DNA of 64,000 nt from Polytrichum commune. Lineage: Eukaryota > Streptophyta > Polytrichopsida > Polytrichales > Polytrichaceae. The notes beneath the pieces were generated by a model. That model did not search any database, was not told where the DNA came from, and saw only the letters and a program-made list of their open reading frames with translations. The translations under genes and the position numbers were made by a program. The stretch is from contig OX485804.1 in the NCBI GenBank assembly GCA_950295325.1, positions 31,310,001 through 31,374,000 of the forward strand. The letters are read 5' to 3'. Positions 10,881 to 56,340 of this stretch are shown in pieces (positions within the stretch are counted from its first letter, which is position 1; every line of letters starts with the position of its first letter).

Positions 10881-13024
10881 GAAAAGTATTATGACATGCT
10901 AGTGGTACTCCGTCAATCAACTAGAGAATCAAGATCACATTGTGCAATTTAGTCAGTCTCCCACATTATCTCAGCCAATTATTGTGCACAAGATCGTTTC
11001 CTAAGAAAACAACAAGAATATCAAACTTCGTTTCAAGTTCGGAGGAGCTCCTGTACTTGAGCACACATCACAAGCAACAATACAACCTCCTTCCACTTCC
11101 ACCGTTGAGTTTAAGGCGGTTGGGAACAGAGGCTAAGTATAATTAGCTTGCAGTTGATGTAGACCTCAGTTGCTGTTTTGAATTGAAATGAGCACTCTTC
11201 TGTATCGTAAGGTAAGGGCAAACTATACTTGTTGAGAAAGCAAAAAAATTATAGTGGTCAAATATTTGTACATACAAATGTGCTAAACAACAAGTTAGTT
11301 TTAGGGATTGCTAAATTGACCACAAAGACGTGTCGCGTGGTCGCATGATGTGTCAAAATTTGAACAATTTCAAATTGTAGGTTGAAATGGAAAGAAAGAG
11401 GAAGCAAAGCACTCCTCTTCATGTGTGTGAAGGAAAATCAAATTTTGACAAGTCATGTAACCACGTGATGCGTCTCTGTGGTCGATTTAACAATCTAGTT
11501 CTAATGGACATAGATTGTAATGCTTCATTGGTTGGGAATGAGAGATTGTAGTTCTTTCTCTATTGCAGGGCATGAGAGATCAATTCATATGTACCAAACA
11601 TCATTCCTCCTGAACTGAATGTCATTTACACAAAACTGTAATAACACAGAACTTGAATAAAGCTATATTCCTATGTTAGTATCTACTGTATGTTGATAAT
11701 CATCAAAAGCAGTTATTTCACCACCCCTTTCATGATCAAGTCAATAAGTCCTCAGAGAGTATCTCTTCAATCAGTTGAAACTTCACTTCTCGTGCATTAA
11801 TCTTCCATAATATTGTAATCACATCATTTGTCTGAAAATATAAATCTAGGAGGTGTCAGTCAAATACATGAAAACCTTATCATGTCTATGTACATTTTCC
11901 ATTTCTCGTTGCAATGGCCTCAAATACTAGTGTGATGGCATACATTTGTGTCTATGTACAAGATACACACAATGCAAAAAGCACATCAACAACATCTTTT
12001 TGTGGATTTTATGTTTGATGTGGATCTTGGTGGATAAAACTGTTAGACTAGGAGCTTGTGAACGAAGAGGTTGACAATTATGCATCACAAGTTTACGCCT
12101 TGGAGCCTCCAAAAAAAAAAAAGTTTGTGCTTGTGCTTTTATCCATCTCATTGGTAACTATTTGAGTGGATGTGAATATACTTGAACTTCAATATGTGGT
12201 AATTCAAACTAAGTCATCCATGTTATAAGTTGTTGTAACATGTGTGAGTTGTATGTCTTGGGCATGCCCCCTTAACATAAATCAATGACTTTAAGTACCA
12301 AAAGGTGCTTCTTGTTTCACTGTTTAATCAATTAAAGAATCCCAACATTTAAATAATTTGGACACATTTGAATTCCCATTTGAAATTTAAGATTTTATAT
12401 GTGATGACCATTTTGTCAGTTAGGATAACATCTAGTATGCATGGTCATGTGCGACAAGAGAACACACTTTTCATTCCCCTTTCAATCATTTGTCTCCATC
12501 GGGAGGTTGTCATATTGCTATTTGCGGACTTTATTTTATTTGAATGCAAATGCGGCTTCGTAAAGTATATAAATCTTGTTTGATGAGGTTGGCTCACATC
12601 TCTAACATCTTCTTGCCAACTCTTGAGTTGTAGGCTATTGGGTGATAGGGTGGCTGATGGCCACCTGGCTAACAAGGCAACATTGACAACGTATTGGGCT
12701 CAACTCTATATGATGACCTACCTCCCAAGTATGGAAGGTTGAGTTGGGTAGGGCAACCTGGCTGTCAAGGATAGAAGTTGCCGTTGTGCAGCACAGGGAG
12801 GAGCGGCAGAGGCCTCCGGCAGGAGGCTACAATGTGAGATGTCCTCTTTGTCAAGCCTCTCAGTTGTTGTCTCTCATCAATTTGTGCATTGTTCCTACCA
12901 TCAAGTACTCTTATGCAGTAGGTGTTGTTTTGATACTATTCCAAAAAAAAAATCATGGTTCCTAGAATGCAAGCTCTTGCTCACTCTCAAGGGCAAGAGC
13001 AAACATGTGCACGGTTAGAATATT
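10881..13024. other. Intergenic DNA upstream of the HUH-type relic
   Basis: AT-rich sequence with short open frames only. The part from about 12600 to 12960 is more GC-balanced and may belong to the same element as the relic at 13025. Its short frames match no family that I can name with confidence. Confidence 0.3.
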
Positions 13025-13832
13025 TTGAGGTTTCGGTCACAATTGCGGGTAGGAGGCACCAATATTGACATTTCTTGTCTTGTGAACTTGTGGAAGTTTA
13101 TTGAGGAAGAATGTATTGCCAAGTTGTGCTTCGTAGAGAGGGTTGGGGCGTTGACCCCCAAGCATTTTCAAATGGTGGTGAAGGGGAATATCACTAGTCT
13201 TGTGGTGTTGAACAAGAAAATTAAAGGTTTGTTTGGGGTAGGATGTGAGTCCTTTGATGGGTCATGCTATCTTGTGCAAGAAATTGAGGGTCGAGGTTTG
13301 CATACCTTCAAGGGTATGGTTGGATATTGTATAAAGGACAATGGTGAAGAGCATTTTCGAGTTCGTTCATCATAATGTCTTAGTGGATGACATGAATGAT
13401 GATAAAATGGAGTACATGAAGTTCAGAAAGGTTGGTTTAAACAATCATGTTAGTCTCTTGCATAGCAACATTTTGCAAAGAACCCATCAACAAGCTCGCT
13501 TTTGTATGAAAAAAATATTTGGGTTGTTGGCTTTGCAAGCACTTTGTTCCATATTTGCAAGAGTGGTCATTTCTAATTGAAACAAACATGGCTAATTCCA
13601 TTGAAGTCAACGGATATGGAGGATCATGATGAATCCTTACAATATTGAGATGAAAGATATCTCCAACCTATTTTTTGATACAATAATTCGTGTCTCCGAT
13701 ATGAGTTTCTTTAATGCTCAAGAGCTCACGCTAGCACATCGATTGGAGGAGCAAGCAATTAATCGTGTGCTCCATCATGAACAAGCTGTAGAGGGCCCTT
13801 GCTTTTGTGTAACTCCAATGAAGGTGGATTGA
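13025..13832 (+). pseudogene. Frameshifted HUH/Rep-type endonuclease relic (Replitron-like)
   Basis: Three consecutive open segments in different frames (13025-13375, 13341-13580, 13626-13832) read as one decayed protein. The first contains KHFQMVVKG, which resembles the histidine motif of HUH/Rep nucleases with the first His replaced (PKH). It is followed by GMVGYCIKDNGEEHF, which resembles the Tyr motif of single-tyrosine Rep proteins. The second segment continues directly after a frameshift near 13355 with FVHHNV, then SLLHSNILQRTHQ. The third has RIWRIMMNPYNI in frame just before its first Met. This layout fits the eukaryotic HUH elements called Replitrons, as I recall them from algae and plants, but I have no alignment. 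It is not functional, given the frameshift, stops and lost His. An unrelated retroelement protein is the main alternative. Confidence 0.42.
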
Positions 13833-14266
13833 AGAGGATGTCAATGTGGGTGTAGCAGATGGCACTGCGGTGTCCCCGTGTGGTGGAGCTCTAGTGCCGA
13901 CCACAACCATGAGGCAATGTCAACGTCTGTGGTGATGACCCAACTTCCCTACTACATACATGTTTGTGGCCTTAGGGAGGCTAGTGTCAAGGAAGCCTTT
14001 TGAGATTTTTGTTTTGTTGTTTTTGTTTTTGTTTTGAATAAATAAAGCTTGCTTCACATACCACTCTCTACCATGTCTTTTTGTGTGGTGTTGCCTTTTT
14101 TAGGATGCCCTCCCCGCCTATTGCTAATTAGAGTAGATTCATCTATTTTCAATCAAGACCCCATCGGAAATCTATAGAGTGCCATAGTTTCGATCAAATG
14201 GGATTGATTTTGGTACCTTTTTTTCATGGGTGGTTAATATAAGGTTCCACGTCTCATGATTTGTAA
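13833..14266. other. Possible 3' flank of the HUH-type relic
   Basis: This holds a T/G-rich stretch (about 14003-14036, repeated gttttt units) and otherwise nothing that can be identified. The 3' boundary of the relic cannot be seen. Confidence 0.3.
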
Positions 14267-14387
14267 GGGTTAGTTTCTATGTAGGCCACTTGCTGATCAG
14301 ATTCTGGTGGAAATGTAGATGCCACCATGTGGAATCTACATTTCCACTAGAATCTGGTCGGCGAGCAACCTACATGGAAATTAACCC
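14267..14387. mobile_element. Short foldback MITE with TAA target duplication
   Basis: This 121-bp element is almost entirely palindromic. The left arm reads GGGTTAGTTTCTATGTAGG and the right arm is its inverse, with aggttgctcgcc-type sequence and matching tctggtggaaatgtagat blocks inside. TAA flanks both ends (14264-14266 and 14388-14390), as expected for PIF/Harbinger insertions. A longer relative lies at 46707-47134. Confidence 0.8.
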
Positions 14388-14390
14388 TAA

Positions 14391-17039
14391 GCCTCCAACT
14401 TTGATTATGCTATCACCAAGGAATCATTAATGCCTTGACACATGTCCCCGTTTGTGAGTGCTAAAGCGAGGAGGAATTCGTCTCAAAATGAGTGGTTATG
14501 GTAGACTCTAGACATTGGTAATGTGTTTACGGCAACTTTTGGCTTTAAGAATTCACAATAATCTCAATGTAAGAAATAGAATTACCAAAAGAAAAAATTG
14601 TAGTCCTTCTAATTTCTACGTGGTAAAATGTTTCTCCAGAGTTGACACAAGATCTCTTAAGTGATTGGTTAAGGGTGCTTCTACTCTAATAATAATCTCA
14701 AGTTAGGGTCCACCCACATACCTTAGATTTTATTTTTTGTATTTTTTAAGATAGAAGACCCAAAAAGTCAACTTTGATACATTAAGACCAAGGAAAACAT
14801 GCCCACTTGAAGGGGAGGTGAAACCACACCTTTTAGAGTTGATTCACAGATGTTGCCGAACACCATGGCAGTCTCCCACATTTTTATTTGAGGGCTAGGT
14901 AGCACTATTGGAGGCTCATTGCAGGATGTAGAAACCCAAGAAGGTGGACCTATCACCTAGATGTTACTATGTAATATTACAGTGGTTCTAGATGACATAT
15001 CGTATAACAACCATCTAGGCTGGTTTGAATTGAATGTGTTATTTTGTGCTGAAATAAAGACATATTGGAGTATAATCTTGCACATTTTACTCAAACAGGT
15101 TATTGAATAATGCTTAAACCGGAGCCTTGAAGTTGAAGCCCATGGAACCTTCGAGGATCAGCTGCCTAAAGTCACGATAGTGCTACACTGATTATTCCAA
15201 GTAGTGCGTGTTACAATTTGGAGTTACACAGTGCAAAAACATCTTACTCAAGAGTTTAATTTTCGCTAACAAAAGTTCAATAGTTTGTTCAGATATTATA
15301 AAACATAAATGACTTTGCCTAGTAAAATATTACATTCTCATCAAAATATTTATAGCACTATGTGCCTCCAAATAGTAACACACACTAATTGGGATAATCA
15401 ATGTAGCAACCTTTACCTTTCCTAGTATTTGATTTCCATTGCATTCTTACCATGGAGAATGCACCTACTTTTATGTATATTAACACTTATGTTCAACAAA
15501 AGGTTCAAAAAAGTATATAGTAAGTGTTCTTAACACCTAGGGGCTTAAAATGGCATCCATTATATGTATATACCTCTATGGATATGAGTGTTTCTTCAAG
15601 GTTGGAGCCATTCTTGAGCCTACATAATGCAAACAAAGTTTGTGATCTACTTTTTATTGAAGAATTAGGGATTTGAGCCTATGGAAAGGCTTCGAGTTCC
15701 CATGCAAGGTCCCTTCTAAAAGCTAGGGCAATTAACATAGTCATCAGAGAGGTATGTTGCCTAATATGTTGGCTCCAAGGAATCCTGAAATTTTGATAAG
15801 CTACAATGGGCTCATGAATCCATCAAATCAAGTGTATACTATACCGTTGGAAATTTGTCTTACAAATACACTTCCAAAGGTATAAAATATGCAACTTATT
15901 TAAAAAATAAGAATACACACAAAGGTCCAAAGTTTATTTCCTTAGTAGAGAGGAAGGTATGGGAATGTGTAGGAGAAACGACAAGAACGAGGTGAGATAA
16001 TCCTCCCAAGGCCTGAAGTCCCTTCCAATAAGCTCAATAGATATGTTATAGCACTATAGATTCTATTGTGGCATATGTATGTTGATATTGTTGTAGTATT
16101 AGTAGCAGTATAACATTGGCTTCCAATAAGAAGCGATCATAAATGAAGAGCCTCTTTGCCATGGGCTACTCCCAACTTTCAACAGTGAGCTCTATGGTAA
16201 TAATGGGGTGGTTGAGGCTAGACCATGAAGTCAGGGGGATAGAGGGTAGAGGGGTGGGGGGTGGGGGGTGGGGAAATTTGTAGTTATTTGTGGGTAGGGG
16301 TCACCTTGTGGCAATGTTGTGGGTGGTGACGGTGATTGCATTGGTGCCTAAATTGTCCGGGGTTTGAGTACCTAATTAGCCGGTTGTTTTACTAGGGTGT
16401 AAGCAAGAAAGTGATCTCCTTAATGTTTGAGCTAGTTGGAGATGAGCTTCACTATGTCAATGTTGATGCATGGCTCTATTGGGGTTTATAAATTCTGTTT
16501 TCAAATTTTTCTATGTTGAAAATTATAATTAAGAGGGTTCAGAGGGCCGTGGTAAGTAAGTAGATGCAAGCGGTTGATTGAGGGAAAGGGGAGCTCAAAT
16601 CATTGGGTGAGATCATGGTGGGTTGTATTTTGGACTCCTCCCCATTGGTTGGCACAATGGACGGGTATTCCTGGGGGTACACCCAATGTTATTTAGCCTA
16701 GGAAGACACTTTGATATTGTTTTATAGCCTCTTGCCAAAACAAAAACGATTTAAGTGCTCACCTATGACCAACTTCATGGTCTAGTTTACCGTGCTTGCA
16801 TGATGCTCATGTCCAAAAACTATGAAGTTTACATGGTCATATTTTAGATGCTAAAAATGTGGCCACATCAACTGCACCGACCCATGCATAACAACTCGTA
16901 ACAGTTCAACATCCTACTACAATGGAGGAAATGTAACAATTATCTATACCAATCGTTATTTCAATACCAAAGGTCGAGTCGTGTGCTACAAACACACGAG
17001 GATTGATACAACATTGGAATACTATCGGCTTCCAAACCA
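14391..17039. other. Intergenic DNA with G-rich tract
   Basis: No gene is recognised. A G-rich stretch occurs at about 16225-16270. A short inverted pair, taccgttgga with tccaaaggta, lies at 15842-15885. The part near 16900-17039 probably continues the decayed transposase that follows. Confidence 0.35.
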
Positions 17040-22310: not shown

Positions 22311-22622
22311 TTAAACAGTCTCATAAGTTTCTCCTCTAGTTTGAAGGGGAACAATGCTCTAAGTTGGATTTGATGCTCATAAGAAAGCAATTTTTCATAT
22401 TTGCAGGTATTGCTTATTGTAACTTCTACTAACTGTATTTAGCATTTTGAGCAACTCCTTTAACTAAGAATGCTTCAAAGATGACATTCAAATTCAAAAT
22501 CACGAGACACCCATCGTCTAGACAATCAATCGTGACTACCTCTAGAATATTAAGGATACGAACCTCAAATTCAAAATTCAAAATTCCTCATAGACATGTT
22601 TTCTAATTTATACATTTTTTAA

Positions 22623-23096
22623 AGTTTTATCAAGATAAACAAGATTTTGTATCTTTATCACGAACTCACATAGCAACTAAAGTCCCAAGATACCTAAATA
22701 TCCTATGTGCCAAACGTTTCGCACGACTCCTTGCAATATAACACACTAAGTCTCTAACCTTGGACACATTTATCTTCATGGACACCATAACAACATATAC
22801 CTCTTACTTAACCACATTAAACATCCCTCCTCAAAATACAACTACCACGACAAACTGCTTTTTAGTTTTATCAAGATAAACAAGTTTTTGTATCTTTATC
22901 ACGAACTCACATAGCATCTAAAGTCCCAGGATACCCAAATATCCTATGTGCCAAACATTATGCACTTCTCCTGGAAATATAACACACTTAATCTTTGACC
23001 ATGGACACATTTATCTTCATGGACACCATTAACAACATATACCTCTTACTTAACTACATTAAACATCCCTCCTCAAAATACAACCACCCCGACAAA
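22623..23096 (+). repeat. Direct tandem duplication of a LINE segment
   Basis: Two units of about 233 bp (22623-22855 and 22864-23096) are nearly identical, sharing for example ttttatcaagataaacaag, tatcctatgtgccaaac and tcttcatggacaccat. The second unit leads directly into the RNase H relic, so a piece of that retroelement was duplicated after insertion. Confidence 0.85.
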
Positions 23097-23370
23097 CAAC
23101 TTATAGCCCACATCGTTGCAACCACTAAAGCTTCCAACCATGATGTCATAATCCGCAAAATTAGAGCATACACCAACACAATAGGCAATGACATGAGAAA
23201 TAAACTAGCCAAAAAAGGGGCCCAAGAACCAAAAATACTAGTAACTCCCTTCCACATGATAGGAAACCAAACGCCATACTCCCGGGGTGTGCACCTTTCA
23301 TTAAAAACCAAGAACCACATGAATTCACAACATACTCTAAAACCCCTTATATATAAGTCATTTTTGTAAA
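22995..23370 (+). pseudogene. LINE-type RNase H fragment
   Basis: The open frame reads TFIFMDTINNIYLLLNYIKH, then HPSSKYNHPDKQLIAHIV, then KIRAYTNTIGNDMRNKLAKK. This pattern fits the last part of the RNase H domain of plant non-LTR retrotransposons, where the family has AHT-x3-GND-x2-DKLAK-x2-G. The usual D near the start of the strand and the alanine-histidine pair are altered (AYT). The upstream RT region is not visible and the start is cut by the duplication, so this is a dead fragment. Confidence 0.65.
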
Positions 23371-33434: not shown

Positions 33435-33478
<44 letters not shown>

Positions 33479-35142
33479 CTTAAATTGAAATTATAATAAA
33501 ATTTTGAAGCCAAAAGTTGGCCCAAGCATATTACCGTTGTCTAGAGTCCGCCATGACCGCTTATTTTAACCGCTCATTCCTTCTCATTTTAGTACTCAAA
33601 ACCAGAAAGCATTTCATGGCACTATTGGTTCGGACCTAATCGAAATTCAGTCCCAGCCTAATCAAAATTCCATTACCCTATAGATTACCGACAGGATTTG
33701 GATCGGGAATAGGCGCTTCTACTATAAATAAATGATGTGTTGTTATTTCTCCATAAGGTAGAATTGTAGGTACTAACAATATATACTCAAGGTTTCAAAA
33801 AAGCACATTCAAGATTGAATATTGAGCTCCATTACAAACCTACAACAAGCAAGTTGAGATACCCAAGAAACTTGGTGCCATGAAGGACCGACCCTTCAAT
33901 TGCCATCTGTGCCTGCATTTGACATTCATAATCCAAAGCATATCCGAAACTGCTTTCAAGGAGATTTACAACCTACACACACACACACACATACACACAC
34001 ACATACTCATACACATGATAAGTGCAGTGTGATTGTACCAGGCAATCACGGTCCAGAAATAATTCAAAAGTCTACACCTCAAAGCATCCCTTCATTGACA
34101 ATGGGAGTAGAAACTGGAAGAAAGTTGTAGTTTAGTCCAAATGGAAGCCCACAATGAAGCAGTAGTCACCAAGTGTGCGAGTTTGGCTCATACAAGTAAA
34201 TGTAAGCCATAAGTACCACGGCTCAACTTTGGGACCCCCCGGACATCTAGCTAGTAAAGCAAATCACCATAGCCAAATTGACTCCTGCAATATTCCCATG
34301 AAAGAGGATCGCGACACCTCAAGGCCGGGGAGGCCCAAAACGCAGAGAAACAGTGCACATCCTGGTCGTTTCTCATTTCAACCAAGTTGATCACTAATTT
34401 GAAGTCACAGAGCCCGACTTAGTCGAATGAGATCGAACTTGAGAGGGATGGGTCTTTACCACATCCCTCCCTCCAGGTAGAGTCCACTAGGTGTTGTGAA
34501 CCAAAATTCAATATTCTTATTGACCAAATTAGTGATGTAATTAACCCCTACTACTTAATTATGTATGTAAGTAGGGGCTACATTTCAAAATTTCATGCGT
34601 TTACCTAGATGCCACGAAGCCACATCCCTCTAGGGTGCCAACCAAAGAGGGTTGTGTCTCCTCATATTATGACAAGCGTCGACCTTATGTTGGATGTGAC
34701 CTACTTGAATCTCATGTGGAAACTGCATTTCAACACTCAATTGAACGGCCTCTATGGTAGAAAGTTTAACTTACAGCTTATAGTAGTGCACTTGACACAG
34801 TGTACAATGACCCTCAAAACCGAGTCAATCAACAAAACAACAAATTTCGAGAAGCCATATCTAGAAAAGTGTTGACCTTTTTGCCGACCCATGAACTGGG
34901 TCAAATGCGCAACCAAGTTGGCTATTATTCTTCCAAATTCTAGCTTGAGCATAGTAGCAATGAGGGGAAATTGCATTTCAAATGACCTTAGGTCTATTGA
35001 CTCAATTTTGGAAGTGTTTTCATCGCTCACCTTCAATTGCAATAAGAAGTTCACATCACCGCCTAGGGTTCTTCCTCTCACTTCTAGTTAGTAGTGTGGT
35101 CCCTAAGGACATTTTCTCTTACAGTTGTGAAGGTTTCCTGTG
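32401..35142. other. Intergenic DNA with microsatellites and a CACTA-like end
   Basis: A possible CACTA-type end starts at 33270 (cactattagaaaatgtggtc). A perfect TA run lies at 33437-33476 and a CA run at about 33974-34003. A segment at about 32450-32570 resembles 60820-60880 (aagaacagacaccaaaaa). No gene is recognised. Confidence 0.45.
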
Positions 35143-38700: not shown

Positions 38701-41700
38701 TCAGAAGTTCTCCTTGTGGAACTCAAACTTGGTGGTTGATTTCTGGGAGTACATCTTGGACAAAACTTCCAACTCCTTTGCTAGTGCTACTGGGCCGCAG
38801 TAGAAAACTCCTGTACACACCAAAAACAAAGACCTCTTGCTCTTAGGGCGAACGCAACGACAAATCATACACCATCACGATTGCACAAAAGAATCCCTTT
38901 ATGGGAGTGAGGGTGCCACTTATCCCATTGGGTGTGAGAAAATTGGTGCGGCATGAAAAGCATACCAATTCGTGCATCTTGATGTGTAGCTGCAAGCCTA
39001 GAGAACACACTCTTCCAATTCGGCCTTGCAAAGTGTGTGCGTGCCTGCAATTCACAAAACAATGATTCCAAAAGGGTCAAGTAGTGTGGGTTTTGTTGTT
39101 GCATTACATTGGGAGTGGAGCCATCGACACTTGAGAGGTGGAAAAGAAAGAAGGAATGAAAGCGAGGGACGTCATTATACCCGAGTGCCTGAGACTAAGT
39201 CAACACCATTCTTTGCATGATGCAATGCTTGTAGCATCATGACGAGCGTTGATCGAGCGTCACCTTCCTCGTACACACTTGTCAAGTAGTTATGCATCTC
39301 AATGATTCCCTGCATTCATAAAAGAGCACTTGATAAATTTTTCATGGGAGACCTCTATGAACAAAGAAATGTAACACCTTCCAAAGGATCAAGCTCTGCA
39401 TTTTGGTAAGGATCCAGTATGGATGCATACCTTTCGGTCACTCTCTTCAACCTCCCTCATGACTCCCCGGAACCAGTCGAAGGAGCCTTGCTCTCGAGTC
39501 ACCCAGTAAAAATAGGCATTGGTGGTCGCCCTCTTTCTCTTCCGCCGGGGGCTCCTGCCAGGCCGCAAATCAGGTGTGATGGCCTGCACATATTAAACCT
39601 GGGTTATCTCTCCTTCCTCCATCATCAGCACAAGTTTCTTTCTACTTGCACAAAACAAATGATCTTGCAGGATATGGTTCGCAAACCATGATTGGGGTTT
39701 GATGCAAGGAAGAGTACCGGGTCGGAGAATTTGTCATGGTTAAGCAGGTCCTTAAGGATGCTTATGAATGGCGTTGCACCAATTCCAAGCCCTACAAGGA
39801 GAAGGACGTCGTACTTCAGGTAATCTTGTGCCGGTGCCCCATATGGACCATCAATGTACAACCTCGGAAACCTGTCATCCACACGTTGCAAGATCAGTAA
39901 GACTCGTGGTCCAGCAGCATATTTTTGGTTAGGTCTTTCTTCAATGGAAAATGGTGAAAGAGGGCGGTGATTGTTGCAAAAGGAGCAGGCAGTACCTTGC
40001 AGTCAAGGTTAACTCCCCACTGAAACCGTGAGGATTAACTCTTTGCAATTGCGGTCGTCCACCACACGCCTGGTAAAAATATCAACCAACAAACTGGTCA
40101 GGCTGGCTGTGATGAACAAACAGCAACAGATGCCATCCCTGGAAGCCTTGTAGTATAGGGATCTTAGGAACACAAAACAAAGAGGTGGTGGCCAAGATAA
40201 TCAACTCACCTCGCTGAAAACTCTCTTCATTTCATTGGTCCAGTCACCCAAAGTTCGGATGTGAACACTCAAGTACGGGTCTCCAGGGGCGGAGGTGATG
40301 GAGAATGGGTGCCACTCAAAAGAGGAGATCTGTGGGCATTGCAGAAACAGATACATGCCACTCTTGTACTTGAAATTCTCCGGTTTCGTCATGTGGATTG
40401 CAAGAACATTCCCAGTGTAAATTGCCGCCTGCTCACAAACAGCAGCACCACACAATAAATCCCTGCCTGAAACATCCTCAATGAACAACAGATAAACAGA
40501 CAGGCAGACAGAACATACAGGTAACTCTGGTGTAATCACTTTACCTTTAAGACATCAACATTGCTCCCAACAGCCCGCACTGAACGCAAGGTACGCTCAC
40601 CCGCATACAATAGCAATGGCACTGCAATGTACATCCAGGTCTGCAATAATATCGGGAGAATATCATCAGTACCTAGCCTCTGAAGGGCACAATCCAAATT
40701 GAAGGCAAAAGAGAGGAAATTCAACACATTCCAGGCCCTTAGAAATGTCCACTGAGAGACTTTATATGCAAATTCCTATAGATGGGTGTGTTAAATTGAG
40801 GATAAGGACAGAGACTTACAGTTCTCTCTGTCCATGGGTTTTTGAGCAGGAGCTTGATCGAGTGGACGAGGAGGAGGATGTAGACAATGACAAAGAGATG
40901 GTGGGAGTACCAAAAGGCATTGAACCCTGTGAGGCGATGGAACGGCCATGGAAGCTGCACTAAGCTCCTGCGGAACCAATGGGTGGCCAGCAGGAATGCA
41001 ATGGCCATGAGGAGCACCATGATGATCCCCGTGTAACCCACTGGCAGCTTTAAGATGTCAATGTACGTGGGTTGTGTGCTGAAATCATCCCCCAAGTATT
41101 TGAAGAACTTGTCATGAGGAGCGTGTGAGATTCGTGGGAGATCACAAGTAATGTGAATGACCCCATGGAGGAAGATGCCCACACCAATCCCACCTGCAAT
41201 AATCTGCGTGACCAAAAATTCCAGTTGTTCAATGCCACAGCCTCTCCCAACAACAATCACTCTTGCAAATGCTCAAAACATGTGCAGATTAGTCTGTGAG
41301 ATTCACCTTATGGAAATTGTCTATGCCACAGCCTTTTTCCCAACAACAATCACCCTTGCAAATGCTCTCATCTCAACATGTGCAGATCAGTTGCAAGGTT
41401 TGGTACCTTGTGGAAATCAAGGTTGTCGTCGAAGGGGATGTAGGAGCCCAGCCATGTCGATCGCAACCATGTGAGCGTATTGCGACACACAGGGAGGAGG
41501 ATGAGTGCCATGTTGAGCTTAAGTGTCTCGGCCGCACCCTTGGCAACACAAATGCAATAGCCCATGACTTGAAATGAGCTTCGGTTGCGGTACTGGATAA
41601 ATTTCCACACAAACAGTCCTGCCATGACTGAAATCCACAATGACATTATCCATAGCCGCTTCCAATTGTCAAGCAGGAAGTAGCGGCTGTTTTCCATGCA

Positions 41701-43574
41701 CTTCCTCAATTTGGACCTCTTGGATTGGTGGGCCAGCAGCTGGCTGTACTGCAGGATGGCATCCTTGCCTAACCCGCCCACGGAGCCTCGCATCAACGTC
41801 TCCAACTGACTCAACTGCGTGCCCCCATCCATAGCCATCATCAGTCAATTTAGCACATTGAGAGCCATCAGGTGAGGATCAATTTGGTCGGCTGCACTCA
41901 AACAGAATACAATCAATTTGTAATTTCATTAACAAACAAATTGAATAACTTCGGTACCTCAATGTATCCTGTGCGATCAACATCAAGCTCCTCCATGATC
42001 AAGGCAGCATACTCTGCCGCCTGATCTTTCAGCTTGGACAGCTTGTTGGCAGATGCACTCAACATGATCACCTCCTTCACTTCCTCCCCCGTTATACGCC
42101 CATCCAAATCTTTGTCACATCTGCCCACAACACACATGTCCACACATTTGCCCCACTCAGAAAACTAACCCGAATTCCTCAACGCCCTTAAATTTCACCA
42201 GCATGAACTCGAGGAGAAGGTCGTCGTTTGGAATTGGGGAATCTCACTGAGACTAAGGAATTGAGGGAGAATAGTGGCAGTGCAGGGAAACATTAGGAAG
42301 GATTGACTCTATTACAGGTCAAAGAAGATCTGTATTCTGGAGTCGAACGATTTGTCGCTAATCTGCAACCAATACTCATACAGTTCATCCTTGGACAACA
42401 ATTGCACTTTCTTGCCTTTCCGCCTCAGAAACGCATCGAACAGCTCGTTAGCAAATTCCTTAGATTCCTTCATACCTGCACATACACACATAAAACGGCC
42501 AAGCTGCTCAGTCCCAATCCCAAAATTGCTGTTGGGATTCCAAGAGCCTTAGTTTAGCTCAATCACCAAAAGCCCAAGTGACCTCATACATTCTAGATTC
42601 AGAGGAACTTAACCTTTAGAACAGATGAACAACCAAGTGATTGGTACTGTTCTAGTATCTTGTCATTAAGAAATCACAAGTGTAATATCCACATATGAAT
42701 AGAAAGAAGAGGCTCGGGGGTGAGATGGAGGTAGATAATGCATCAGCTTATGTGATTTCCTTCCTTCCTCACAATTCTCAATCTGTACCCCTATCTCTAA
42801 CGTGGCATCCCCATAGCCAGGCTGCTCTGGAATGACAGGTTTGACACAATTTGGCTCATGGGTTGGCACGAACAAAACAAATACACACGCGCGCGCACCT
42901 ATGCATTCCGCAAAATTGGCACGGGACAACATGAAGTCGGCGTTGGCAAGCCGATGGAAGCGCACTTCAACATGCTCCCAAGACTTTTTCTGGTCTGCAG
43001 TGGCCGTAGCCTTGTTGATGAAGCGAAGGCCCTCAAGTGCATACTCAGCCCCAGACCTGGTTCTGCGCATCATTCCTTGGCCATTCTCAGGGTCAGCAGC
43101 AGCATTGAAAGCCCCTGCGAAGGCCTCTGAACCCATGCTTGCCTCCGAGGAATTTTGCACCTTGGATGTGTTGCGTTGGTGCCTTGTGAGGTCGTGGCTG
43201 AGCTGCCTCACCATGGTGCCCACCTTGGTGATGCTCTCACGGAAGGAGCTTGACAGCCTATGGGGTTGATCCCCAGCCTGCGAGGATGCGTCCCACATCA
43301 TCTGCTGCTGTGCGTCTGCTGTCAACACGGGGATCTCAACCTCGCACTGCCCAGAGGTCACCCTGCGGAGCGTCACGTGATCCTTGCCCACGTCCACCAT
43401 CACCTCCAGCATTGTGTGTCCACTTCTCGCATTCTCGCAGTGCCATTGTGGCCCCGCGCTGTCGCTCATCATGTGATTGCCATTCCCCATCATGAACTCG
43501 ATGCCCATCTCCACCACCCCGGGGGATGATTCCGAGCTCATGTTCTGCATCCTCTCCTTGTACTTCAACGCCAT
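38701..43574 (-). CDS. Respiratory burst NADPH oxidase (RBOH), 13 exons
   Basis: This membrane enzyme moves electrons from cytosolic NADPH through FAD and two hemes to oxygen, making superoxide outside the cell. Exons in coding order are 43574-42899, 42475-42316, 42120-41958, 41814-41407, 41203-40820, 40640-40545, 40428-40210, 40069-39996, 39871-39718, 39583-39431, 39309-39181, 39044-38966 and 38810-38701; all introns are GT-AG, giving 934 residues. An EF-hand [12 protein letters not shown] is at 281-292, followed by a second that ends across the next junction ([12 protein letters not shown]). Heme histidines fit H468/H482 and H570/H583, with spacings of 14 and 13 as in gp91phox. FAD motif HPFSITSAP is at 669-677, NADPH motif GLGIGATPF at 754-762, and the C-terminus is FHKENF. 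The start is uncertain: the frame stays open to 43715 without an earlier ATG, so an upstream exon could add residues. Calcium control is expected from the EF-hands. An exon-intron duplication lies in intron 4. Confidence 0.93.
41232..41421 (-). repeat. Tandem duplication of an exon-intron junction in RBOH intron 4
   Basis: Two 90-bp units (41232-41321 and 41322-41421) share atgccacagcct, caacaacaatcac, cttgcaaatgctc and atgtgcagat. The second unit includes the real end of exon 4 and its donor at 41406. The first carries a decayed copy of the same junction, including an alternative donor (aag|gtgaat) at 41307/41306. The true junction is kept in frame. Confidence 0.85.
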
Positions 43575-44291
43575 GTCCCCGTTCTGCTCTTCAAGAGATC
43601 GTAATGATCTGGTGCAACCAATTCTGTACAAGGATTCAAATCCCGCCCCCTGTTGCTCCTTTCCTACCGCTGTTCTGTGTGCATCATCGTCCGACGTCCC
43701 TCCCACCCCACTCAAAAAAATTCAAAACAGTAATAGAAATTATGGAGTTTCTTCCCTGCCTGTATGAGCTGCTAGACCCTACGGTACCGGCAGCAGTATT
43801 AATGGCCAGGGGGGAGCTCCATCACAGCTTGCATGCCGATGATTATAGAAACGTCGACAACACCAGCGTGGGTCATTTTGATGGCTCCCCAGCTTCACAG
43901 GAGGGGTAACTGCATCATCAACATGGTGCCAGCAGCAGCCTCAACCACTAACTCACTACGTAGTAGGACAGACAGAACAGACAGAGTAGCTTAATCTTCC
44001 GCCCGACTTCTCTTCTCCTCTCTTCCCCTCCGTGACGACGTACAATCCTTATCAACTCCCTCCCGAGACCCAACCCCCCTAACCTCGCTCGGTCCCCAAC
44101 CCCACACGTAGGGTTAAGTTAACGTTGGGTGTCAACTTCGCATCAATGCAGGCTCCCATGCAGCCAACGCCTCCCCTCTCCACAAGCGCTGCTCACCATT
44201 GAAACCTACAGCACTTCCCAAACCCCACTAAGTACTTCAAAACTTGCTTGCTTGCTTGCTTCGTCCTCCCTCCCACAAACCCTGCACACCG
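43575..44291 (-). promoter_or_regulatory. RBOH upstream region and probable leader
   Basis: GC content is higher here than in the surrounding intergenic DNA, with many short C-rich and pyrimidine-rich patches. An in-frame stop lies just above 43715. The frame 43575-43715 could be part of the first exon or leader. Several short upstream ATG frames exist on the - strand farther out, for example a 20-codon frame at 44441-44503. Transcript boundaries cannot be decided from sequence. Confidence 0.4.
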
Positions 44292-52900: not shown

Positions 52901-54065
52901 ATCGTAGTCACTTTTTCATAATGTCCAAATCGAAACACTTACAACTCAATTACAATAATTCATATAGCATTCTTTGATGACAATGGCCTTGGGGAATTAC
53001 AACACTTGACTCATTAATCCATTGAAAAAATTGAGACAATTTATAACTCTTAAAAAAATCTTTAGGTGATTTGACATTATAAATGACTTAAAATAAACTA
53101 ATTGGACGTTTAAGTGTGGGTTACTATTTGAAGTTAAACGTAGTTATAACTTTTTAATGAAGTTATCATTATGTGTTCATATTAGACGAACAACTAACTT
53201 TTGTACGTCAAGGAACGTAGAATATTTTACTTGATTAAATAACATTTTCTAGATATAAAGCTTTACCCATATGTAAACTCAAATGGTAACCCACATTATT
53301 ATGACTATGTAGTGTAGTGAGACCAAATCCAAGTCAATGAATCCCAAATCTATAGAGATTATGTTTTTGTTTGGATAGATGAGAGTTACATTATCCAACA
53401 ATTACCCTTAACCTTTGAGGAACTACCTTAAGAAGATGTTATAAATCAACACCTAAATGGTTGATTGGGGTGAACGAAAGCTATGATACCGCACATACAT
53501 GCATGATTTGGGAGGCCTTTCTTTTTTTCCCACTACACAAATTTGTAAGACCTAGATGACCAAGAACCCTCGTTAAGGAAATCCACAAGTTTGAACATGT
53601 GACCTTGGAAATTTTACATGCTTTAGTTCTTCAAACAATATATGAAAGGTGTTGAAATCTTAGACTTGATGAACATGTGCATTCACAATGACGTGAATTG
53701 TTTGAAAGCAACTTCATGATTAAATTTTTATTGAAATCATGCTTAGAATTTGTAAACATCATGGAAAGTCAATAATTTCATGTTATTAAGATTGTGAGAA
53801 AATATTTATTATTATAAGAACAATAAGTGGTGGCTCCCCATCTTAGCTTATCAACCTCAAATTATTGTTTCCTTTTGATGTTCTATTCAATTTTGAGCCA
53901 ACAAAGTTTTAAATCATCATCCTTACATGATATGCAAATAGAAAGCAACCAATGTTATCATATTGAGCATTATTTTGATTTTTGAGATCAAGGGTATCTA
54001 CTTGACATTCGCAGCTCTAGAACTAAAAGGCTATCCATAAAAATATTTAATTTTATATTTTTAGC
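49931..54065. other. Long AT-rich intergenic stretch
   Basis: No gene is recognised. Frames at about 50610-50843 and 50972-51166 look protein-like but match no family I can name. Sequence at about 51400-51660 resembles the hairpin flank (cacaatatgtttgggggatt, aatgatggctaaaa). A TA-rich tract lies at 51229-51272, and a weak family C relative is at about 53300-53400. Confidence 0.35.
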
Positions 54066-56340
54066 ATGGTGGATGTCAATGATATTGGTATGTTTTTTCA
54101 CCCTCCATATGCTCAAATACACGATCATAACAGTTCAATCCTAGCCACTCTCTTGCTACCTCGGTTCTTTTCATTATGGGAGTATTTTTACCTTTTATAC
54201 GTCTTCCCCTTCCTCCGCCTTGCCCCTAGACCCTCCCCCTATGAATTTTGCCACAAAATTAGTTCTCTTGAACGAAAGATACATTAAAAAACTCCCAAGA
54301 CAAAACATGTCCACTATTCATCCTATAAACAACCATCTTCCTTACTGGAAACGATTATTCTTCCACTCATCACGCACTTCACACTCACACATTCGTACTT
54401 CTTGTCTCCATTAACATGTCCATTACAATTTTTTCAATACTCCTCTTCCCACAAGATTGATATACTAATCGAATCTATTGGGTCAACTTTCTCTTATTAG
54501 TGGCATGGCCACGGCTATGCCCATATTTCTAATGCTCGCCTACTCACTAGACTTCTTTAGTGGGCCAAAATTGCTTCCCAAATTAACCCCAACTCATCTC
54601 ACTATAATCACTAGACTACATGACAATTGGGCATACAAGCTCCCAAACTTCCTCAACCACATTGACGTCCATCACGTACTCACGATACCACCTCTCACAC
54701 TTCGATGCATCCCCCCACCAAGTTTTCCCACATACTTTACACAAAAGAACCCCAACTAATATCTTTATTTTATATACAACATTCTCCCCCTACAAACACA
54801 ATCCTCAACTTCCTCACTATAATCCCATCATCTCTTCTACACCTCTGCCACACCTCCTCCCCTACAACCATGACAATTTGGGTATACTCCAACCCCTCAC
54901 AAAACTATTCATGGACAACAAAAGCCCAGTGCACCTTCCCCTCTGCCCATAGTCCCCCATCCACTCCCCCCCCCCTTTATAAATAATCTCCATTCTCTTT
55001 GATTTCCTCCTTGTGATTCATACTACACCGATGAATCTTTCACTCCCCTGGATGGAAATGGCCATGGTAATGTAGCAAGCTTTGGTGTCTACAATGAATC
55101 AACTAACACCAACATAGTAGCCAAACAACCCGGCTCTCCAAACATTCTACAAGCATAACTTTATACTCTCCTCTTGCCATTCAACACACACAAACCCTCA
55201 ATACAAAGTCTTTATCTTCACAAACTACCTCAACTTTGTTTATTTTCTCAACAATCATCTACGCCATCCATCCTCCCAATATAATCACCATGACAAATTT
55301 CTTATCACAACAACCCTCTTCCACGTAAAGCACATAAAGCAAAGTCAACATCACATTACAATCCAAAAAATACAAGCCCATATTAATATCACTACACTAA
55401 ATAGGTAGATTAGTGTTGGAAACACTAATAGTCGACGAAAACGCTAAACGTCAATTGTCTTCATAGTGTTAGAACACTAAATGTCAACTCTAACACTATT
55501 TGTACCAATTAGTAACTTTGAATATTTACAAAAGCGCATTTAGTGTTCGATGACATTTTTTGTAGATCTTCAAATGAAGAATTGGAGGTAGAATATGTGA
55601 GCCTCATAGAAAATGTAATATGCTAGGAATTTGATATTACAAAATCTAAACTTAATGGAACTCAACTTTGACAATGCAAAATAAAGACAAAGGAAATTGT
55701 AACACTAATTGTACTTTCAAGTGACATTTAGTGTTTTGGGTAACTATTGGTTCTAACACTAATCTTCATCTAACACTAATCTACCTATTTAGTGTAGTAA
55801 TGAGAATGCAAACAACTTTGCCAAACAAGGATCGACAAAAGATCCTATCCCGCTCTCACTCACCCTTTTCCACCTAATTGGCCGACGAGTTCCTTACTAG
55901 CATGCTAGTATTCCCACCTCCTCCCAACATGATGGCTCCATTTGCAACCTTAAACAATACATAGAAATCAATACCTCAAATAAATAAATAAATAAATGAA
56001 TAGTCTCTAGTGCATCCCACATTCCCATATGCTAACAAATGGCTACTTAACACAAATCTACATCATGTATAGTAGAACCTTTTTTGGACCTCTCCATGAG
56101 TCTTAGATGCCCAAATCACACAAACACTTAGATTTAGATATGGGAGATACATGGGTAACTACCATAAACATAAGCTCCTCAATAACACTCTCCCTGTTTT
56201 GTAACCTATGTTGCCTAAAGAAATTTGACATATGCCTCCATCTCCTCTCATGTTGCACCAACAAACACATTAATAATCTTCAAACCAACCAATACAACAA
56301 AGTTCTTCATCTATTGTTGACATGCTCTTAGCCAATCCTA
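54066..56340 (+). pseudogene. LINE (non-LTR retrotransposon) 3' relic with RNase H and zinc-knuckle end
   Basis: Broken frames in order suggest the tail of a LINE. A linker region occupies about 54066-54970. An RNase H begins near 55020 with TDESFTPLDGNGHGNVASFG, including the first acidic residue, continues with NIVAKQPGSPNILQA, and after a MITE insertion ends with NANNFAKQG-type sequence near 55805. The downstream part (56010-56340) has NKWLLNTNLHH, then a C-x2-C ... H-x4-C pattern (CNLCCLKKFDICLHLLSCC), which resembles the zinc knuckle at the end of many plant LINEs. Many stops and shifts make it dead. No reverse transcriptase domain could be recognised upstream, so the 5' end is lost or too decayed. 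It is related to the fragments at 22995 and 25240. Confidence 0.65.
55391..55798. mobile_element. MITE inserted in the LINE RNase H region
   Basis: The first and last 27 bases are perfect inverted copies (starting actacactaaataggtaga). If the element is counted from CACTAAATAGG (55395) to 55794, TA flanks both sides. The interior is built from repeated acacta/tagtgt units. It separates the RNase H relic into two parts, so it is younger than the LINE. Confidence 0.9.

Follow-up and report, generated by a model that had tools for sequence, protein, structure and literature searches.

A segment of plant DNA that is very probably a dead copy of a Replitron

Helitrons are eukaryotic transposons with an HUH Rep; their Rep is fused to a helicase and carries two tyrosines. 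The Reps of CRESS-DNA viruses possess a histidine motif followed by a YxxK motif. Replitrons are small eukaryotic transposons encoding a one-tyrosine HUH Rep. Replitrons were reportedly first described by Craig (PNAS, 2023), and the mechanism proposed for their Rep is inferred from that paper and from the HUH superfamily. The Rep encoded by the transposon's gene possesses a Replitron-type C-terminal domain. In an intact Rep a metal ion would be held by the glutamate and the HxQ residues. The tyrosine would cut one DNA strand and remain covalently bound, and the bound Rep would then help to paste a copy elsewhere. Replitrons are covered in a 2023 review, which gives their terminal repeats as direct and 5-11 bp long and the target duplication as 2-8 bp (PMC10741241). 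A preliminary description of the DNA analysed here had spoken of a little-described class. The kind is indeed recently described, yet with this review and two Pfam models it is less obscure than that wording implies.

The DNA under study is a 64-kb stretch, hereafter the window, on contig C2 of an assembly of 407.8 Mb. Of its 64 contigs seven are large, and these amount to 406.1 Mb. One segment of the window is very probably a dead copy of a Replitron, as judged from its sequence. Its features are as follows.

12955..13065, plus strand: N-terminus of Rep in the first frame, with a conserved ATG (M-x-x-R-M...); the start aligns among copies.
13019..13372, plus strand: HUH endonuclease domain in the second frame (Pfam PF21859; residues compared over 30 copies).
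13335..13577, plus strand: middle of Rep (FEFVHHNV...SLLHSNILQRTHQ) in the third frame (open Rep frame of sister copy L003 as tblastn query).
13532..13621, plus strand: start of the C-terminal domain (TLFHICKSG..TWLIPLKS), again in the second frame (tblastn with L003).
13605..13829, plus strand: remainder of the C-terminal domain (RIWRIMMNPYNI...) in the third frame (tblastn with L003).
13953..14003, plus strand: C-terminal peptide YIHVCGLREASVKEAF and stop codon (similar peptide in other copies).
14004..14130, plus strand: 3' untranslated stretch with AATAAA-like sites (3' alignments and start of the adjoining repeat).

The preliminary description had read three frames in order as one protein between 13025 and 13832. 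Several frames do make up one protein, but they alternate, and the frame of the first piece is back at about 13532-13621. KHFQMVV and GYCIKD both lie within one plus-strand frame (13019-13372), LLHSNILQRTHQ lies in another (13335-13577), and the piece at 13605-13829 shares the frame of the latter. The ATG at 12955 sits in a further frame which spans 12934-13065. The initial coordinates include most of the coding part, yet they are too narrow: the coding part extends from 12955 to 14003, and the stop codon at 14001-14003 is located about 170 bases beyond the end given at the time. As to the start, 10 of the 47 non-self rows of the genome relatives search begin at 12954 or 12955; of the remaining rows one begins 12 bases before the start codon, in an A-run, and the others begin later. 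A short deletion is present near 13607-13623, the point at which the alignments of several copies break. The window copy is dead, as its coding pieces alternate between frames and are marked by stops and a deletion; after point changes, frameshifts and the deletion it is unable to make a complete Rep. Within the 64-kb window no further credible copy of the relic was detected (best other tblastn E 0.085).

The identity of the segment is supported by profile comparison. The 13019-13372 piece matches Pfam Replitron_HUH (PF21859) with an E of 1.9e-9 and 38.4 bits at a curated cut-off of 28.5, residues 12-115 of the piece aligning with profile positions 7-110 of 128. Its glutamate is at residue 40, HFQ at 49-51 and the tyrosine at 103. 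Replitron_HUH is the sole Pfam family matched by this piece at E<=10, and four out of four shuffled controls gave no match. A profile search had been proposed to decide between Replitron or HUH families on one side and an LTR or LINE protein on the other, and RT and DDE proteins had been discounted from the motifs. Both points were borne out: the window pieces have no Pfam match to RT, DDE, LINE or LTR proteins at E<=10. The pieces at 13335-13577 (B) and 13605-13829 (C) have no Pfam match above cut-off, and the later split pieces of the window have no Replitron_C match of their own. The PHROGs search with the main piece returned nothing. Some weak matches were taken as chance, i.e., Rrn11, SRP1_TIP1 and a conotoxin family for piece B and an upstream frame, all under their cut-offs; an unannotated PHROGs match of piece C (E 0.005); and a PDB sequence match of the window piece to a repeat-like lysozyme (E 0.0044), in which no stretch is significant by itself. 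A single-sequence structure prediction was useless as evidence of an HUH fold (mean pLDDT 39.6).

The connection between the HUH piece and the later blocks is provided by L003, a sister copy on contig C1 with a frame of 289 residues free of stops. This frame matches Replitron_HUH with 57.7 bits and also Replitron_C with 35.2 bits; a search of PDB by sequence gave no match. In tblastn the L003 protein aligns with the relic in two frames with 134 and 123 bits, covering L003 residues 1 to 265 and most of the relic. As the open frame of L003 aligns to them, the later blocks belong to the same protein as the HUH piece. The Pfam E value, the shuffled controls and these two alignments put the four motifs quoted initially beyond chance. 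L003 itself is no whole copy. Its conserved start codon is 64 bases ahead of the open frame and in a different frame (L009 positions 4265 and 4329), and the C-terminal peptide was looked for in L003 and not found.

These comparisons also bear on a viral origin, i.e., on an endogenised Rep gene of a single-stranded DNA virus of the CRESS type, with no transposon involved. The pattern E..HxQ..YCxKD resembles CRESS Rep motifs, the histidine and YxxK motifs following each other in a similar order. Yet in Pfam, at E<=10, neither the window piece nor the L003 frame has a match to a helicase family or to a Rep family of viruses, and both match Replitron models. Further, when viral contigs were scanned with the window piece, a search limited to close relatives, 0 of 25 candidate stretches were confirmed, and two phage matches at E 4 and 5 are not credible. 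We consider a viral source highly improbable.

Both Replitron profiles match the genome in numbers: scoring of 119 candidates with PF21859 gave 74 matches at E<=0.001, and scoring of 72 candidates with PF21860, Replitron_C, gave 32, counts which are lower bounds and refer to matches, not copies, as neighbouring rows may be one copy. The PF21859 matches are spread over all seven large contigs; 71 of them are over the cut-off, two of those only together with neighbours. None of 14 control genomes matched PF21859, and none of the 14 matched PF21860. The window copy is found among the PF21859 matches (37.6 bits there) and is absent among those of PF21860. By hand count a stop interrupts the matched stretch in 39 of the 74; the other 35 have no stop, and many of them are short. 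The window copy is one of many old, dispersed copies. The proposed membership in the Replitron group of single-tyrosine HUH nucleases thus stands, given a Replitron_HUH score above cut-off, the genome matches and the additional Replitron_C domain of L003. Like Replitrons, the locus has one tyrosine in the conserved motif and resides among many matches in the genome of what is probably a non-seed plant; unlike an intact Replitron, the window copy is broken.

Other features of this genome may be mentioned. Land plants are known to retain motile cilia only where sperm swim, and radial spokes are part of such cilia. A radial-spoke gene shows up in this genome as four matches side by side on C1, the best with 139 bits, and as a weak one on C5. 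In a genome of 408 Mb this speaks for a bryophyte, a lycophyte or a fern as the probable host; a seed plant, which as a host would have been a novelty, was discarded on account of this gene. A chromosome number of seven would be in keeping with a polytrichaceous moss. Within the window, exons of a respiratory-burst NADPH oxidase are encoded on the minus strand at 39628-43721 (Pfam NADPH_Ox, Ferric_reduct and NAD_binding_6). At 22616-23097 a unit of about 240 bases is duplicated in tandem with 91% identity, and 54001-56000 shows a strong GC skew of -0.43, with C over G on the plus strand. Helitrons and Replitrons coexist in the genome: Helitron_like_N has 34 matches there, 13 with a matched stretch free of stops and several in frames 400-600 residues long.

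With so many Helitron matches at hand, the relic might be that of a Helitron Rep, likewise an HUH protein of a eukaryotic transposon. However, the window pieces have no Helitron_like_N match at E<=10, and the conserved motif holds one tyrosine, as opposed to the two tyrosines and fused helicase of Helitrons. A Helitron origin is exceedingly improbable, and the Replitron assignment is retained.

How well the putative catalytic residues are preserved was determined in 30 other copies, picked for high score in genome searches. In the columns of the window's E-R-V-G, H-F-Q and Y-C-I-K-D the residues recur in these 30 as follows: Y in 27, E, H and D in 25 each, Q in 24, C in 23 and K in 21. Frame slips account for some of the departures, e.g., in L040. 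Thus, E..HxQ..YCxKD is the common pattern of the copies compared, with one tyrosine, putatively catalytic, after HxQ.

Over 13061-13342 identity to the window ranges from 68 to 81% among the 30 copies. L040, which scores best of the other copies, shares 76% identity with it over 12954-13789. Since even this relative is no closer, the window copy is old; no figure in years is claimed. The differences from the window over the 30 copies are distributed over codon positions 1, 2 and 3 as 491/367/814, a spread as expected if the lineages had long been under protein selection. Window and L040 differ by 20/15/18, which brings up purely neutral decay of these two copies. This explanation is weak because copies equally close to the window in this stretch keep the third-position excess (L042, 14/13/22; L044, 14/11/23; L015, 8/4/27).

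The end of the gene has a feature of its own. The peptide YIHVCGLREASVKEAF with its stop has a partner at a score >=32 in 9 of the 30 other copies, in six of the nine including the stop; at this score it is absent in 21 of 30. The reversed-sequence control yielded no partner. Several copies display the pattern Y-V-H-V-R-G-L...E-E-A-F-stop, and AATAAA-like sites follow the peptide in several copies. In L031 the peptide comes after the C-terminal domain without a change of frame, suggesting that the Rep naturally ends with it. In 10 copies, that of the window among them, the peptide is situated past the Pfam C-terminal match, a possible difference from published Replitrons.

Does the similarity extend beyond the gene? 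On the 3' side the window copy scores 132 with L040 (200 shuffles at most 74) and 116 with L046 (200 shuffles at most 62). Similarity among copies is lost towards 14.13 kb, the start of a different repeat, and the right end of the relic is probably near 14125-14133. On the 5' side of the ATG the copies have mostly nothing in common (median score 24 over 351 pairs), and the window's upstream DNA is no more like that of L040 than shuffled sequence is (score 34 as against a mean of 45 and a maximum of 74 in 200 shuffles). L025 and L042, however, have about 290 upstream bases in common in one alignment of 76% identity which is continuous with the coding part, and L040 and L046 have a stretch further upstream in common. 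These shared stretches indicate that the mobile unit extends 5' of the gene in at least some subfamilies.

The unrelated upstream regions are what one would anticipate if the window copy were a pseudogene of a Replitron-derived host gene which spread as gene copies and not by transposition. Against this speak the dispersal of the matches over seven large contigs, the upstream sharing in the pairs L025/L042 and L040/L046, and the 3' untranslated sequence common to the window copy, L040 and L046, all as for a mobile unit. We regard spread as host-gene copies as very improbable and continue to view the segment as a dead Replitron. A left end, terminal direct repeats and a target duplication were not found by comparing the copies, which are too diverged. 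The terminal repeat may possibly be represented by an AT-rich motif on the 3' side and a word resembling it at L042's left edge.

The adjoining repeat at 14129-14691 is a separate element which looks like a MITE. Its core at 14266-14388 matches itself inverted (81%), and relatives are found at 33474-33601 (75%), in L019 near another Replitron copy (80%), and in L033 (77%).

A more far-reaching interpretation is that of a large, long-lived Replitron lineage with an extra conserved C-terminal tail on its Rep and 3' ends that close with an AT-rich motif near CTAATTAATGA, in which some copies were open under selection until recently, either as active elements or as a Rep recruited by the host. Taken as a whole we hold this to be unlikely. 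L003, the longest open frame, is off-frame from its start codon, which lowers the odds for copies open until recently.

With this relic a known class gains one more dead member, in a host of the type expected, and knowledge of the Replitron class itself is unchanged. It illustrates that the motifs of a Replitron can give it away to the eye even after heavy decay, and it extends the known range of Replitrons by one genome in which related matches number in the dozens. The conserved C-terminal tail, if common to published Replitrons, would help to mark the ends of their genes.
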